From: Alphaproteobacteria bacterium | GTDB lineage: Bacteria > Pseudomonadota > Alphaproteobacteria > MPNO01 > VGEU01 | DNA: 49,572 nt | Direction of reading: 5' to 3' | Assembly (NCBI GenBank): GCA_016869145.1 | Contig: VGEU01000014.1 | Location: 1 to 49,572, forward strand | In this document: piece after piece, positions 21,330 to 27,996 of the stretch | Layout of the letters: every line of letters starts with the position of its first letter | Numbering within the stretch: the first letter of the stretch is position 1 | Notes under the pieces: model-generated | What the model was told of the DNA's origin: nothing | Database searches by the model: none | The model's input: the letters and a program-made list of their open reading frames with translations, nothing else | Translations under genes and position numbers: made by a program

Positions 21330-22682
21330 TCAGTTGCGGGTGAACAGCGACTGGAGGCCGTGGCGCATCAGGCCCTTGTTGCCAAGCTTCTTCATCTGCT
21401 TCATCACGCGCGCCATCTCCTGGTGCTGCTTGAGGAGCTTGTTGACGTCCTGCACCGTGGTGCCGGAGCCTACGGCGATGCGCTGCTTGCGCGAGGCCTT
21501 GATGATGTCGGGGTTGCGGCGCTCCTTCGGCGTCATCGACAGGATGATCGCCTCCTGGCGCGCGATGATGCCGTCGTCGATGCGCGCATTCGCCATCTGC
21601 GACTTGATCTTCTGGACGCCGGGCAGCATGCCCATGAGGCCGGACAGCCCGCCCATCTTGCGCATCTGGCGGAGCTGGGAGAGGAGATCGTCGAAGTCGA
21701 AGCTCCCCTTCTCGAGCTTCGCCGCGATCTTCTCGGCCTCCTTCTGATCGACGACCTCCTGCGCCTTCTCGACCAGGCCGACGACGTCGCCCATGCCGAG
21801 GATGCGGGACGCGATGCGATCGGCCTGAAAGACCTCGAGCGCGTCGACCTTCTCGCCGACGCCGAGGAGCTTGATCGGGACGCCGGTGACCGCGCGCATC
21901 GAGAGCGCCGCGCCGCCGCGCGCATCGCCGTCGACGCGCGTCAGCACGATGCCGGTCGCGCCAACGCGCTCGTGGAAGCTCTTCGCGACGTTGACCGCGT
22001 CTTGGCCGGTCATCGCATCGGCGACGAGGAGCGTCTCGACCGGCTTCACCACGTCGCGCACGCGCGCGACCTCGTCCATCAGCTCGTCGTCGATGTGGAG
22101 CCGGCCGGCGGTATCGAGGATCACGATGTCGTAGCCCTCGAGGCGCGCGGTGTCGATCGCGCGGCGCGCGATGTCGACGGGGCCCTGGCCGGCGACGATA
22201 GGGAGCGTGGCGACGCCGGTCTGGCGGCCGAGGACGGCGAGCTGCTCCTGCGCGGCGGGGCGACGCACGTCGAGCGACGCCATCAGGACCTTCTTCCGCT
22301 CGCGTGACTGGAGGCGGAGCCCGATCTTGGCCGAGGTCGTCGTCTTGCCCGAGCCCTGAAGGCCCACCATCAGGATCGGCAGCGGCGCCGGCGCGGCGAG
22401 GTTGAGGGGCGGTGTCTCCGCGCCGAGTGTCGCGACCAGATGGTCGTTAACGATCTTGACCACCATCTGGCCGGGCGTGACCGAGCGGATCACCGCCTCG
22501 CCGACCGCCTTCTCGCGCACCTGGTCGATGAAGTCCTTGACCACCGGGAGCGCGACGTCAGCCTCGAGGAGCGCGATCCGGATCTCGCGCATCGCCGCGC
22601 CGACATCGGCCTCGGAGAGCGTGCCGCGCTTCCTCAGCCGGTCGAATACGTCGCCGAGCTTGCCGGTCAGGCCTTCGAACAT
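21330..22682 (-). CDS. ffh: Signal recognition particle protein Ffh (SRP54)
   Basis: SRP GTPase that binds signal peptides of nascent membrane proteins and 4.5S RNA. 450 residues: helical N domain (1-90), G domain with P-loop VGLQGSGKTTTSAKI at about 106-121, DVRRPAAQEQL, ILDTAGRLHIDDELM, and GVGEKVDALEVF, then a Met-rich M domain (LSQLRQMRKMGGLSGLMGML, GSGTTVQDVNKLL). Its receptor ftsY is also in this window at 29.2 kb. It heads the rpsP operon, with a candidate promoter and a leader hairpin upstream. Confidence 0.97.
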   Translation of the reverse strand: MFEGLTGKLGDVFDRLRKRGTLSEADVGAAMREIRIALLEADVALPVVKDFIDQVREKAVGEAVIRSVTPGQMVVKIVNDHLVATLGAETPPLNLAAPAPLPILMVGLQGSGKTTTSAKIGLRLQSRERKKVLMASLDVRRPAAQEQLAVLGRQTGVATLPIVAGQGPVDIARRAIDTARLEGYDIVILDTAGRLHIDDELMDEVARVRDVVKPVETLLVADAMTGQDAVNVAKSFHERVGATGIVLTRVDGDARGGAALSMRAVTGVPIKLLGVGEKVDALEVFQADRIASRILGMGDVVGLVEKAQEVVDQKEAEKIAAKLEKGSFDFDDLLSQLRQMRKMGGLSGLMGMLPGVQKIKSQMANARIDDGIIARQEAIILSMTPKERRNPDIIKASRKQRIAVGSGTTVQDVNKLLKQHQEMARVMKQMKKLGNKGLMRHGLQSLFTRN

Positions 22683-22731
22683 CGCCCTCGACGCTCCTCG
22701 AAGTCACCGACCCGGTCGGACCAAACGCAAA

Positions 22732-22764
22732 CGCGCCAGTGCGCGAACCTCGCGGACTGGCGTG
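22732..22764 (-). promoter_or_regulatory. Leader hairpin in the ffh 5' region
   Basis: The inverted repeat CGCCAGT (22734-22740) / ACTGGCG (22756-22762) encloses a second short stem CGCG-AACCT-CGCG, giving a two-tier hairpin about 50 bases before the ffh ATG. No U-tract follows on either strand, so it is not an obvious terminator. It lies downstream of the candidate ffh promoter, so it would be in the 5' leader of the transcript. Confidence 0.5.
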
Positions 22765-22809
22765 CGCCCTCGGGCGCGCGGGGCCGAACCGGGCCAAAGA
22801 TGCGGTGAA

Positions 22810-22837: not shown

Positions 22838-22989
22838 GGCGCGGACGGATAGAGCGGGGCGTCGCGACGCGGCGACGGCGGCGCATTCACGGCCGGGTGG
22901 CGGGCGCCGTGACATCGCCGAATCCATCTGCGTCGATGCGGCGATGAATCGCCACTTCTCCACAAGATGTGGTAGAGACATGGCCGGAC

Positions 22990-23808
22990 ATGCACAATTG
23001 CAGCCTTCATTCCGGCAACCCGCGCTTCGCGGTGCTGCGCCGGCCCGGCCGGGTCTGGGCCATCGGCGCGGTGCACGGTGATGCGCGACGCCTGGCCGGG
23101 CTCCATGCAGCGCTCGCCCGGCGGGTGGCGCCCCACGACCGCCTGGTCTATCTCGGCAACGTGCTCGGGCGCGGCCGGTCGATCCCGGACTGCCTCGACG
23201 AGCTCCTCGCGTTCCGCTGCGCCTTCCTCGCCCGCCCCATGGCCTTCGCCGCCGACGTCGCGATGCTGCGCGGCGGACAGGAGGAGATGTGGCAGAAGCT
23301 GTTCGAGCTCCACTTCGCGATCGGCCCGCTCGATGTCCTCAACTGGATGGTCGACCAGGGGCTCGGCGCGACGATCGAGGCCTATGGCGGCCAGGTGCGC
23401 GACGGGCTCAGCGCCGCCCGCCAGGGGCCGATGGCCATCACGCGCTGGACCAACGCGCTCCGCGCCCAGTTCCAGCGCCACGACGGCCACCGCGACTACT
23501 TGAGCGCGCTCCGCCGCGCCGCCTATGCCGATGACGGCTCGCTCCTGTTCGTAAGCGCGGGCCTCGACCCGGAGCGTCCGCTCGACACCCAGAAGGACGC
23601 GTTCTGGTGGTCGGCGCGCAAGTTCGAGGCGATCGACCGGCCCTATGGCGGGTTCCGCCGCATCGTGCGCGGCCTCGACCCCGACCACCGCGGCGTGGTC
23701 GCGACCGACCACACGCTCAGCCTCGATTCCGGCTGCGGCTTCGGCGGCTCGCTCGCCGCCGCCTGCCTCACGCCGGACGGCCGCGTCGCCGAGGTGATTG
23801 AGGTCTAG
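22990..23808 (+). CDS. Degenerate PPP-family (calcineurin-like) phosphatase homologue
   Basis: A 272-residue protein with the layout of bacterial PPP serine/threonine or ApaH-like phosphatases but with most metal ligands changed. GDxHG is GAVHG (26-30, Asp to Ala), GDxxDRG is GNVLGRG (56-62, both Asp lost), and GNHE reads GGQEE in LRGGQEEMW. VHAG is VSAG in FVSAGLDPERPL. The late His motif survives in ATDHTLSLDSG, and the closing GFGGSLAAACL matches the family. It may be a non-catalytic fold or use a different metal site. The start is uncertain: there is no clear ribosome-binding site, and a GTG at 22969 is in frame. Confidence 0.7.
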   Translation: MHNCSLHSGNPRFAVLRRPGRVWAIGAVHGDARRLAGLHAALARRVAPHDRLVYLGNVLGRGRSIPDCLDELLAFRCAFLARPMAFAADVAMLRGGQEEMWQKLFELHFAIGPLDVLNWMVDQGLGATIEAYGGQVRDGLSAARQGPMAITRWTNALRAQFQRHDGHRDYLSALRRAAYADDGSLLFVSAGLDPERPLDTQKDAFWWSARKFEAIDRPYGGFRRIVRGLDPDHRGVVATDHTLSLDSGCGFGGSLAAACLTPDGRVAEVIEV

Positions 23809-23809
23809 C

Positions 23810-24622
23810 CTAGCCCTTGAGGAACGCCGTGATCGCCGCCGCGGTCTCGGCCGGCTTCTCGACCTGCGGGCTGTGGCCGGCACCCTCGATCAGCTGGAGC
23901 CGCGCGTTCGGGAGCCCGGCCGCATAGGCGGTGGCGTGCGCGCGCGGCACCATGCGGTCGGCCTCGCCCCACACGACGAGCGCCGGGCGGTCATAGCGGT
24001 GCAGCCGGTCGCGGAGCGTCCGGTTGTGGAGATAAGGCGGCTTGAAGCCGACCCGCGAGGCGAAGCGGAACGTCTTGTAGCGCTCGAGCTCGGTCTCGAC
24101 GTCGAGGCGGGCATCGGGGAACATCGCCAGGCCGATCGGCGCCTCCGGCGAGGCGAACAGGAGCCGGCGGATCCCCGCGAAATTGGTGCCGTCGACCGGC
24201 TGCACCTCCCAGAAGATGTCGCCGATCGGCTGCTGGCTGACGAAGAGGCCGGTCGCGCCGACCAGCACCAGCCGGTCGAAGCGCTCGCGCCAGCGCACCG
24301 CCATCTCGGCCGCGATCCAGCCGCCGATGCAGCTCCCGACGAGCGTCACCCGCTCGAGGCCGAGCGCATCGATCGTCTCGAGATAGTGGAACGCCACGTC
24401 CTCGATCGTCTCGATGGCGGTGTTCTCGTCCGAGCCGCCGCAGCCCGGATGCGCCGGCGCGATCAGCCGGTGCGATCTGGCGAGCGTGTCGTGGAACGGG
24501 AGCCACACCGTCTGGCCGCCGTGAACGTCGGCGAAGCCGTGCAGATAGAGGACCGGCGGACCGGCGCCGATCTCGGCCACCTGGACCTTGCGCCCCCGCA
24601 CCTCGATCACGCGCCCGGACAT
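23810..24622 (-). CDS. Alpha/beta hydrolase with Cys in the nucleophile position
   Basis: A 270-residue alpha/beta-hydrolase-fold protein. The oxyanion segment is LYLHGF (26-31). The nucleophile elbow reads GSCIGGW (96-102), so the G-x-Nu-x-G position is Cys98 rather than Ser, as in dienelactone hydrolases. VVWGEADRMVP holds the likely acid, and EGAGHSPQVEKP the catalytic His. The substrate is unknown. The gene lies 34 bases after a molybdenum hydroxylase large subunit on the same strand, so it may act on that enzyme's product. It converges with the PPP-like gene one base apart. Confidence 0.85.
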   Translation of the reverse strand: MSGRVIEVRGRKVQVAEIGAGPPVLYLHGFADVHGGQTVWLPFHDTLARSHRLIAPAHPGCGGSDENTAIETIEDVAFHYLETIDALGLERVTLVGSCIGGWIAAEMAVRWRERFDRLVLVGATGLFVSQQPIGDIFWEVQPVDGTNFAGIRRLLFASPEAPIGLAMFPDARLDVETELERYKTFRFASRVGFKPPYLHNRTLRDRLHRYDRPALVVWGEADRMVPRAHATAYAAGLPNARLQLIEGAGHSPQVEKPAETAAAITAFLKG

Positions 24623-24656
24623 GGCCTGCCCCCTTTGTCCTGCTTTCTCGTTCGCG

Positions 24657-26978
24657 TCAATTCACCCGCGCGGCGCGGATCGCCTGCCACACGCGCTCCG
24701 GCGTCGCCGGCATGTCGACATGCGTGACGCCGAGCGGGCCGAGCGCATCGACGATCGCGTTGACGACCGCGGGTGGCGCGCCGACCGTGCCCGCCTCGCC
24801 CGCGCCCTTGACGCCGAGCGGATTGGTCTGGCACGGGACCTGGTTCTCGTCGGTGACGAACGAGCAGAAATCATCGGCGCGCGGCATGCAGTAGTCCATG
24901 AACGAGCCGGACAGGAGCTGGCCGGACGCCTCGTCGAACACGATCGCCTCGCACAGCGCCTGGCCGATGCCCTGCGCCAGACCGCCGTGGATCTGGCCGT
25001 GCAGGAGGAGCGGGTTGAGCGCGAAGCCGACATCGTTGACGGTGGTGAAGCGGACGATCTCGACCTTGCCGGTGTCGAGGTCGACCTCGACCTCGCACAC
25101 CTGGCAGCCGTTCGGGAAGTTGGGCGGGCCACCGAAGGACGCTTCCGCCTCGAGCCCGATGCCGCCCGTTGCGGGCACGCCGAACGGGATCGCGAAGGCG
25201 GTGCCGGCGACCGCCTGGATCGGCACCGCCTTGTCGGTGCCGGCGATGCGGTAGAGCCCGTCCTTGAACTCGATGTCGCCCTCGGCCGCCTCGAGCATGA
25301 AAGCCGCCATCTTGCGGCCCTTCTCGATCACGATATCGGCCGCCGCCTTGAGCGCGGAGCCGCCTTGAGTGCCCGAGCGCGAGCCGAACGTGCCGCGGCC
25401 GAAATTGATCGCGTTGGTGTCGCCCTGGATCAGGCGCACACTCTCGAACGGCACGCCGAGCCAGTCGGAGACGAGCTGGGCGTAGACCGTCTCGTGGCCC
25501 TGGCCGTGACTGAACGTGCCGGCGAGGACGGTGACGGTGCCGCCCGGCTCGAAGCGGATCTCCATCCGCTCGTTGAAGAAGGCCGAGATCTCGATGTAGT
25601 AGCAGAGCCCGATGCCGCGCCGGCGGCCGCGGCGTTCGGATTCGGCGCGCCGCGCGGCGAAGCCGTTCCAGTCGGCGACCGCGAGCGCCTTGTCCATCGT
25701 CGCGGTGAAATCGCCCGAATCGTACATCGTCTCGAGCGAGGTCGTGTACGGCATCGCGGATGCCGGGATGTAGTTCCGCCGCCGCAGCTCGGCCGGCGCG
25801 ATCTTCATCTCGCGCGCCGCCAGGTCGATCAGCCGCTCGAGCTGGTAGATCGCCTCCGGACGCCCGGCGCCGCGATAAGGTGCGAGCGCCTGGGTATGCG
25901 TGAAGACCCCGCGCGTGACGGCGTGGATCAGCGGCACGTGGTAGACGCCGGTCAGCATGCCGAGCCCGGTGATCGCACACACCGCCGCCGCGCTCGACAG
26001 ATAGGCGCCGAGATTCCACGCCATCTCGGCGCGGAGCGCGAGGATGCGCCCGTCCTTGTCGAAGGCGAGCGCGAGATCGGCAATCTGGTCGCGGCCGTGC
26101 TCGTCGGCGAGGTGGGACTCGCTCCGGTCCGCCGTCCAGCGCACCGGCCGACCCACCTTCCGCGTCGCCCAGACGAGGAGCGCGTCCTCGCAGAACAGCG
26201 TGCCCTTCATGCCGAAGCCGCCGCCGACATCGCGCGCGATGACGCGGAAATGGTTCTCCGGCACGCGGAACAGCTCGGCGAGCGCCTGGCGCTGGGCGTG
26301 CGGCATCTGGGTCGAGGTGTAGAGGATCGTCTCGCCGGTGCCGACATCGTGGGTCGCCATGCAGCCGCGCGGCTCCATCGTGTTGGCGCTGACCCGATTG
26401 TTGACGACCGCGAGCCGCGACACGTGGTGGGCGGCGGCGAAGGCGGCGTCGACCGCGAGCTTGTCGCCGCGCGGCAGCGTGAACGAGACGTTGTCCGGCA
26501 CCTCCGGCCACACCGCGGGCGCACCCTTGGCCATGGCGGCGCCGATCGAGCTCGCCGCGGGCAGGATCTCGTAATCGACGTCGACGCGCTCGGCCGCATC
26601 GCGCGCCGCCTCCGGCGTCTCGGCGACCACGATCGCCACCCGGTCGCCGACATGGCGGACGGTCTCGACCAGGAGCGGGCGAAGCGGCTTCGGCACCTCG
26701 GGCCCGGCATGCATGTCGGCCGGCATCACGTGGCAGGCGATGCCGGTGATGCCCGCGGCCGCGATGTCCTTCGCGGTCGCCACCAGGACGACGCCGGGCG
26801 CGGCCGCGGCCGCCCGCGTGTCGATGCGCCGGACGCGGGCGTGGGCATGGGGCGCGCGGACGAAGACCGCGTGGGTCTGGCGCGGCAGCACGATGTCGTC
26901 GACATAGACGCCGCGGCCGGTCAGGAAGCGCGGATCCTCGGAGCGGGGCACGGGCTGGCCGACGCCGAACTTGTTCAT
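24657..26978 (-). CDS. Xanthine dehydrogenase-family molybdenum-binding subunit (first copy)
   Basis: Molybdopterin-cytosine-dinucleotide-type large subunit of the xanthine/aldehyde/CO dehydrogenase family, 773 residues. It starts with VGQPVPRSEDPRFLTGRG. VGGGFGMKG, PYRGAGRPEAIYQLERL, FSHGQGHETVYAQLVSDWLG and the C-terminal GVKGAGEAGTVGAPP with the base Glu are visible. The active-site loop lacks the CoxL AYRCSFR signature, so it is not CO dehydrogenase form I. The usual FAD (CoxM-like) and [2Fe-2S] (CoxS-like) subunits are not adjacent. It is followed by the alpha/beta hydrolase and diverges from dapF. The substrate cannot be assigned. Confidence 0.9.
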   Translation of the reverse strand: MNKFGVGQPVPRSEDPRFLTGRGVYVDDIVLPRQTHAVFVRAPHAHARVRRIDTRAAAAAPGVVLVATAKDIAAAGITGIACHVMPADMHAGPEVPKPLRPLLVETVRHVGDRVAIVVAETPEAARDAAERVDVDYEILPAASSIGAAMAKGAPAVWPEVPDNVSFTLPRGDKLAVDAAFAAAHHVSRLAVVNNRVSANTMEPRGCMATHDVGTGETILYTSTQMPHAQRQALAELFRVPENHFRVIARDVGGGFGMKGTLFCEDALLVWATRKVGRPVRWTADRSESHLADEHGRDQIADLALAFDKDGRILALRAEMAWNLGAYLSSAAAVCAITGLGMLTGVYHVPLIHAVTRGVFTHTQALAPYRGAGRPEAIYQLERLIDLAAREMKIAPAELRRRNYIPASAMPYTTSLETMYDSGDFTATMDKALAVADWNGFAARRAESERRGRRRGIGLCYYIEISAFFNERMEIRFEPGGTVTVLAGTFSHGQGHETVYAQLVSDWLGVPFESVRLIQGDTNAINFGRGTFGSRSGTQGGSALKAAADIVIEKGRKMAAFMLEAAEGDIEFKDGLYRIAGTDKAVPIQAVAGTAFAIPFGVPATGGIGLEAEASFGGPPNFPNGCQVCEVEVDLDTGKVEIVRFTTVNDVGFALNPLLLHGQIHGGLAQGIGQALCEAIVFDEASGQLLSGSFMDYCMPRADDFCSFVTDENQVPCQTNPLGVKGAGEAGTVGAPPAVVNAIVDALGPLGVTHVDMPATPERVWQAIRAARVN

Positions 26979-27162: not shown

Positions 27163-27996
27163 ATGACGGGTATCGCCTTCACGAAGATGCATGGCCTAGG
27201 CAACGACTTCGTCGTCGTCGACGGCCGCGACCGTCCGCTGCCGCTGACGCCGATCCAGGTGCGCGCGGTCGCCGACCGGCACACCGGCGTCGGCTGCGAC
27301 CTCCTGATCGTCGTCGAGCCGGCGCGCTCGGCGGCGGTCGATGCGTTCATGCGCTTCTACAACGCCGACGGGGGCGAGGTGTCGGCCTGCGGCAACGGGA
27401 CGCGCTGCGTTGCCCAGCTCCTGATGGACGAGCTCGGCCGCGATCGCGTCCGGCTCGAGACGCACGCGACCATCATGGCCGCGGCGCGCATGGAGCGCGG
27501 CCTGATCGCGGTCGACATGGGCACGCCCCGGTTCGACTGGCAGGACATCCCGCTCGCGCTGCCCGAGAATACGCTCCACGTCGATCTGATCGACGGCCCG
27601 TTGCACAACCCGGCGGCGGTCAACATGGGCAACCCGCACGCCGTGTTCTTCGTCGCCGACGCCGAGGACATCGACCTCGAGCGCTACGGCCCGGGGCTCG
27701 AGACCCACCGCCTGTTCCCCGAGCGCGCCAATATCGGCATCGCCCAGATCATCACCCGCCGACGCATCCGGCTTCGTGTCTGGGAGCGCGGCGTCGGCAT
27801 TACGCTCGCCTGCGGCACCGGCGCCTGCGCCGCGGCCGTGACCGCCCATCGTCGCGGCCTCACCGAGCGTGCGGTCGATGTCGTGGTCGACGGCGGCGTC
27901 CTCGCGATCGAGTGGCGCGAGGACGACCACGTCATGATGACGGGCCCGGTCGCGACCAGCTTCGCGGGCACGATGGACCGCTCGCTTCTTTCATGA
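27163..27996 (+). CDS. dapF: Diaminopimelate epimerase
   Basis: Cofactor-independent epimerase converting LL- to meso-diaminopimelate for lysine and peptidoglycan. 277 residues. FTKMHGLGNDFVVVD is the diagnostic N-terminus. The two catalytic cysteines are in SACGNGTRC (Cys76) and LACGTGACAAAV (near 220). MGNPHAVFFV and ANIGIAQII are also conserved. The stop overlaps the mtaB ATG by four bases (ATGA). dapF-mtaB-ftsY is a recurrent alphaproteobacterial trio. Confidence 0.97.
   Translation: MTGIAFTKMHGLGNDFVVVDGRDRPLPLTPIQVRAVADRHTGVGCDLLIVVEPARSAAVDAFMRFYNADGGEVSACGNGTRCVAQLLMDELGRDRVRLETHATIMAAARMERGLIAVDMGTPRFDWQDIPLALPENTLHVDLIDGPLHNPAAVNMGNPHAVFFVADAEDIDLERYGPGLETHRLFPERANIGIAQIITRRRIRLRVWERGVGITLACGTGACAAAVTAHRRGLTERAVDVVVDGGVLAIEWREDDHVMMTGPVATSFAGTMDRSLLS

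Follow-up and report, generated by a model that had tools for sequence, protein, structure and literature searches.

A probable pseudo-PPP locus

In the window (the whole 49,572-nucleotide stretch of alphaproteobacterial DNA analysed here), the forward strand carries an intact open reading frame that runs from an ATG at position 22990 to a stop ending at 23808 and encodes a protein of 272 residues, here termed the pseudo-PPP gene (22990..23808, +). An in-frame GTG at 22969 is a possible alternative start, and in most homologues the start falls about six residues inside the ATG of the window protein. The initial annotation had read this protein as a PPP-family phosphatase homologue with four altered motifs, all of which are present in the translation: GAVHG (residues 26–30; 23065..23079, +) in place of GDxHG, with Asp27 lost and His29 kept; GNVLGRG (residues 56–62; 23155..23175, +) in place of GDxxDRG; GGQEE (residues 95–99; 23272..23286, +) in place of GNHE; and VSAG (residues 188–191; 23551..23562, +) in place of VHAG. 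A sixth ligand, missing from that reading, is lost as well, the C-terminal GH having become GL in RGLD (residues 227–230; 23668..23679, +; xGHT in PPPs, with the last metal ligand). His29 is the sole ligand still in place in the window protein, which upholds the earlier statement that almost all of the six had gone. The C-terminal segment LDSGCGFGGSL (residues 245–255; 23722..23754, +) is kept, including the terminal GxGxGGxL noted at the outset (residues 248–255, within SGCGFGGSL), and its LDSG (245–248) corresponds to the C-terminal (I/L/V)D(S/T)G motif that the available text of PMC535813 defines for bacterial PPPs. The PPP signature motifs GDxHG, GDxxDRG and GNH(E/D), as given in the available text of PMC535813 and PMC8220851, occur neither in the window protein nor in its family.

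The pseudo-PPP gene lies 307 bp from ffh (21330..22682, −). Between the two, upstream of ffh, there is a match to the Rfam RF01793 ‘ffh’ sRNA motif (22726–22777, −; 37.1 bits, gathering threshold 35). In the window's order the neighbour on the opposite side is dapF (27163..27996, +), separated from the pseudo-PPP gene by an alpha/beta hydrolase gene and a xanthine-dehydrogenase-like gene (23810–26978, −); in several relatives, unlike the window, dapF lies directly 3′ of the pseudo-PPP gene.

A class-wide family with substituted metal ligands

A protein search of 143 genomes gave a match in 69, with the family comprising 49 matches besides the window's own (31–61% identity, E = 6e-106 to 7e-30) and the weaker matches being ordinary PPPs, as judged on the 21 that were aligned (L003 among them). 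A named collection contributed 47 further loci, including those of Azospirillum, Niveispirillum, Nitrospirillum, Tistlia, Pelagibius, Denitrobaculum and Micavibrio, names that suggest Alphaproteobacteria as the class. Using a profile, the family was found in 144 of 387 genomes of the class (188–436 bits), separated by a wide score gap from the next match (75.9 bits), the ordinary PPP L110. All 14 matches in a sample of the phylum (397 genomes, the share from outside the class not being given) belonged to the same class. Searches of viral contigs and plasmids found no relatives, and a phage or plasmid origin was rejected on these grounds.

The motif alignment contained all 117 family members that were fetched (the window's included; a subset of the 144-genome profile set plus others) and 21 canonical relatives, among them a copy from the window genome itself (C137, L003). 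At each of the positions compared, the canonical relatives were uniform (21 of 21) and possessed six of six ligands. The family was nearly as uniform at several of them, with other residues: Asp was absent at position 27 (0 of 116; Ala, n = 78; Ser, n = 35), at position 57 (0 of 116; Asn, n = 114) and at position 60 (0 of 116; Gly, n = 115), as was the GNHE Asn at position 96 (0 of 117), while the catalytic His at position 97 occurred in a single member (1 of 117; Gln, n = 107). His29 was more persistent (99 of 116). Position 189 was divided between His (n = 45), Asn (n = 42) and Ser (n = 18) among 116 members, and position 229 was rarely His (6 of 116; Tyr, n = 51; Phe, n = 44), such that the Ser189 and Leu229 of the window protein are minority states. 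Other residues were held tightly, including Glu98 (117 of 117), Arg227 (110 of 115) and Asp246 (109 of 116).

Counted by member, the number of ligands kept out of six was zero (n = 12), one (n = 59), two (n = 43) or three (n = 1), with gaps in two members. No intermediates with a nearly intact site were present among the aligned members, and the site is eroded further in the most divergent of them (L103, L139, L141–L143 and others). The search for the same substitutions in relatives, proposed in the initial annotation, thus found them fixed across the 117 aligned members, and its counter-case, that relatives carry intact motifs, fails, as none of the 115 members readable at all six positions keeps more than three ligands.

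In a tree built by a quick method, from which the fragments L080 and L095 were left out (as they were from the pair statistics), a branch with support of 100 divided the 115 family rows from the 21 canonical rows, which makes the family monophyletic against the sampled canonical relatives. Twelve rows of the window's order formed one clade (support, 97) nested inside the family; their tree label, ‘ffhcontext’, was assigned by order membership and also covers L008 and L009, in which an ffh neighbour was not seen. One genome (G024) carries two family copies, one adjoining ffh and the other (L097, G024:C234; 41% identity to the window protein) in a carD string. In the tree the latter lies close to L155, whose genome belongs to another family, and it may be a contaminant. 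A member on a contig labelled Chromatiaceae (L037, JANQFI010000289.1) groups with Kiloniellales members and probably represents a mislabelled MAG.

Fold, conservation and a probable binding role

AlphaFold, run on a 44-row alignment, predicted a calcineurin-like PPP fold with high confidence (mean pLDDT, 93; pTM, 0.91), and Foldseek and VIA-align placed the model among the PPP phosphatases; the initial annotation had proposed a structural comparison with ApaH/PrpA. The best structural match was the Rhizobiales-like phosphatase RLPH2 (5vjv; VIA Z = 21.5, rmsd = 3.4, 223 residues, 20% identity), followed by the PnkP phosphatase domain (4j6o; Z = 21.0, rmsd = 3.0, 214 residues) and E. coli ApaH (9ojd; Z = 17.5, rmsd = 3.1, 196 residues). 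A 44-member profile compared with solved structures matched RLPH2, a putative Ap4A hydrolase, PnkP and the Ap4A hydrolase 9t9n (E = 0.0002–0.002). Domain models recognised the protein poorly: a Pfam scan of the window protein matched no family, and with 44 members the best Pfam E values were 0.01 (Metallophos, PF00149) and 0.006 (Metallophos_3, PF14582), neither of which assigns the domain. The closest NCBIfam model was that of ApaH (NF001204, TIGR00668), which 32 of the 44 members matched at E up to 1 (best E = 5e-8), though the window protein scored 17.8 bits against a cut-off of 176.

The family thus resembles several known systems and departs from each. It shares with the alphaproteobacterial PPP phosphatases (23–28% identity between the 21 canonical proteins and the window protein) the fold, the motif order, the Gly before the last ligand, Q201, W207, the H167 column and the D246 tail, but these enzymes have all six ligands and the catalytic His, whereas the family keeps 0–3 of the six. 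The group of ApaH, PrpE and the ApaH-like phosphatases (ALPHs), which supplies the closest profile, differs in that its catalytic motifs are lost here. With PnkP there is a common C-terminal D-x-GC-x-FGG segment, but the PnkP phosphatase domain is an active enzyme domain with two metals that forms part of a larger protein. The Rhilphs, to which RLPH2 belongs, keep all of the expected metal ligands according to the available text of PMC535813; the family does not.

The old active-site positions are the most conserved part of the family, though with new residues. Within the five old active-site motifs, 12 of 26 positions were at least 90% identical, compared to 33 of 240 elsewhere (odds ratio = 5.4, p = 0.0002, with row relatedness uncorrected), and among the residues that mark the family and that the canonical relatives lack are W23, N57, G60, T154, W206 and R227. 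Such conservation suggests a pocket that was remodelled and is in use, and homology to the solved folds would place the new residues in a cluster in space. Among the 40 closest pairs listed, the 17 with protein identity of at least 90% (two of them duplicates, as L039 and L157 are identical) had dN/dS values from 0 to 0.153, indicating strong purifying selection in the lineages, all other than that of the window, from which these pairs come; the nearest relative of the window protein is 60% identical (dN = 0.36, dS = 0.59, which is unreliable). No weight was placed on the values over all 1695 pairs (median, 0.465; maximum, 1.28), given the saturation and GC bias of synonymous sites in distant pairs. 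The idea of a pseudo-phosphatase retained under selection is supported by this purifying selection in other lineages and by the class-wide fixation of the substitutions.

The reading favoured here, with a probability of roughly 0.75, is that of a PPP-fold protein without catalytic activity and probably without metals, in which a rebuilt pocket binds a small ligand or a protein partner. The PPP fold would be kept in such a protein while the two-metal centre could not be built, and phosphate esters would then not be hydrolysed. The former active site would have been rebuilt as a fixed and probably metal-free pocket, lined by Asn57, Gly60, Arg94-Gly95-x-Gln97-Glu98-Glu99, Arg227-Gly228 and, in most members, Tyr or Phe at 229, along with His29, His167, Trp206 and Asp246, and the bound ligand or partner would have a role in general cell physiology. 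We infer that the protein no longer acts as a phosphatase, carries no bound metals and serves in binding; one weak metal site may remain, given that His29 persists in 99 and His189 in 45 of 116 members. In the available text of PMC8220851, engineering the GDVIG of the Sphaeroforma arctica ALPH to GNVIG abolished decapping activity. The GN of this dead mutant is the rule in the family, and six members read GNVIG naturally at the second motif.

Vps29 and the DNA polymerase B-subunits are dead metallophosphoesterase-fold proteins in which the fold is kept for binding; by analogy, the family may work in the same manner, though these proteins come from different organisms and from different branches of the superfamily. 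Dead proteins of this fold are already known elsewhere, while the bacterial family, which apparently lacks a name, appears to be undescribed: a literature search, with most subscription papers outside its scope, recognised no description of it. With members in more than one-third of the sampled genomes of the class (144 of 387) and, in the window protein, no Pfam match, the family looks like an overlooked housekeeping component that annotation as a phosphatase would misrepresent. The fixity of the substitutions also makes it possible to define a set of mutants with which to probe what the rebuilt PPP pocket binds.

Neighbourhood, transcription and competing readings

The divergence from ffh described in the initial annotation is real but specific to a lineage. 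An ffh gene adjoins the pseudo-PPP gene in 10 of the 12 rows from the window's order, whereas in most of the class the upstream neighbour is carD, found directly upstream on the same strand in 89 of 111 loci (those with ≥900 bp upstream), with rpoH directly downstream in 46 of 106 loci (those with ≥1200 bp downstream). The usual gene string is helicase – S4 protein – fdxA – carD – pseudo-PPP gene – rpoH – M48 peptidase, in which the neighbours were named by reading their sequences and CarD alone was checked against Pfam (PF02559, in the window's order). In nine relatives within the window's order the carD string persists without the pseudo-PPP gene and without rpoH beside it; in the window genome, S4 – fdxA – carD lie on a contig that ends 123 bp past carD; and L008 has dapF, mtaB and ftsY downstream of the pseudo-PPP gene and no adjacent ffh. 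These arrangements are most simply explained by a move of the gene in the ancestor of the window's order, in which case its divergence from ffh says nothing general.

In 45 of 103 loci a terminator-like hairpin stood between carD and the pseudo-PPP gene (frequency in base-shuffled sequence, 1%), which argues against one transcript and makes an operon with carD unlikely. A heat-shock promoter upstream of the gene was rejected, as a sigma-32-like sequence was present in none of 116 upstream regions (1.2% in shuffles). Nor was there a general signal of TTGAC-type promoters across the family (17 of 115, compared to 10% in shuffles). In several members of the window's order (L008, L009, L010 and L012) the ATG is preceded, at a distance of a few bases, by a TTGACG – about 17 nt – CCTAAT pair; this promoter-like arrangement, not seen in the window itself, suggests a leaderless transcript.

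The CarD and RpoH neighbourhood suggests a connection to transcription, but one that is weakened by separate transcription and by the relocation of the gene. A narrower form of the favoured reading would make the protein a transcription-linked regulator working with CarD or RpoH, for instance by sensing a nucleotide alarmone, as the frequent adjacency to both genes and the presence of Ap4A hydrolases among the closest solved structures might imply; the hairpins argue against a simple operon, however, no upstream region has the sigma-32-like promoter, and the window's order keeps its carD block without the pseudo-PPP gene, such that this role is unlikely. A more particular version, in which a dead PPP/ApaH-type phosphatase serves class-wide as a sensor that takes up in its rebuilt site either a nucleotide alarmone or the 5′ end of an RNA and acts on transcription with CarD and RpoH, is a long shot.

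Slightly less plausible than the regulator is a remodelled site that carries out some other reaction, using a single metal or no metal, through His29, Glu98/Glu99, His167 and Asp246. In its favour, the polar residues of the former site hardly vary, but no usual ligand set is complete, His29 is missing from 17 of 116 members, and no known family with this residue set was found in Pfam or NCBIfam. An active PPP enzyme with unusual motifs is very improbable. The available text of PMC8220851 describes ALPHs that are active without the second Asp of GDxxDRG, so loss of Asp60 alone need not be fatal, but here the motif lacks its first Asp too, the other motifs have lost their Asp, Asn and His, and GNVIG is the sequence of the dead ALPH mutant. 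That the window genome carries one phosphatase copy in decay, a pseudogene in progress to which the minority residues Ser189 and Leu229 might be attributed, is hardly credible and is contradicted by a family spanning 144 genomes, by core substitutions common to 117 members, and by an intact reading frame, with a stop (TAG) in just one of the 144 family matches (G331).
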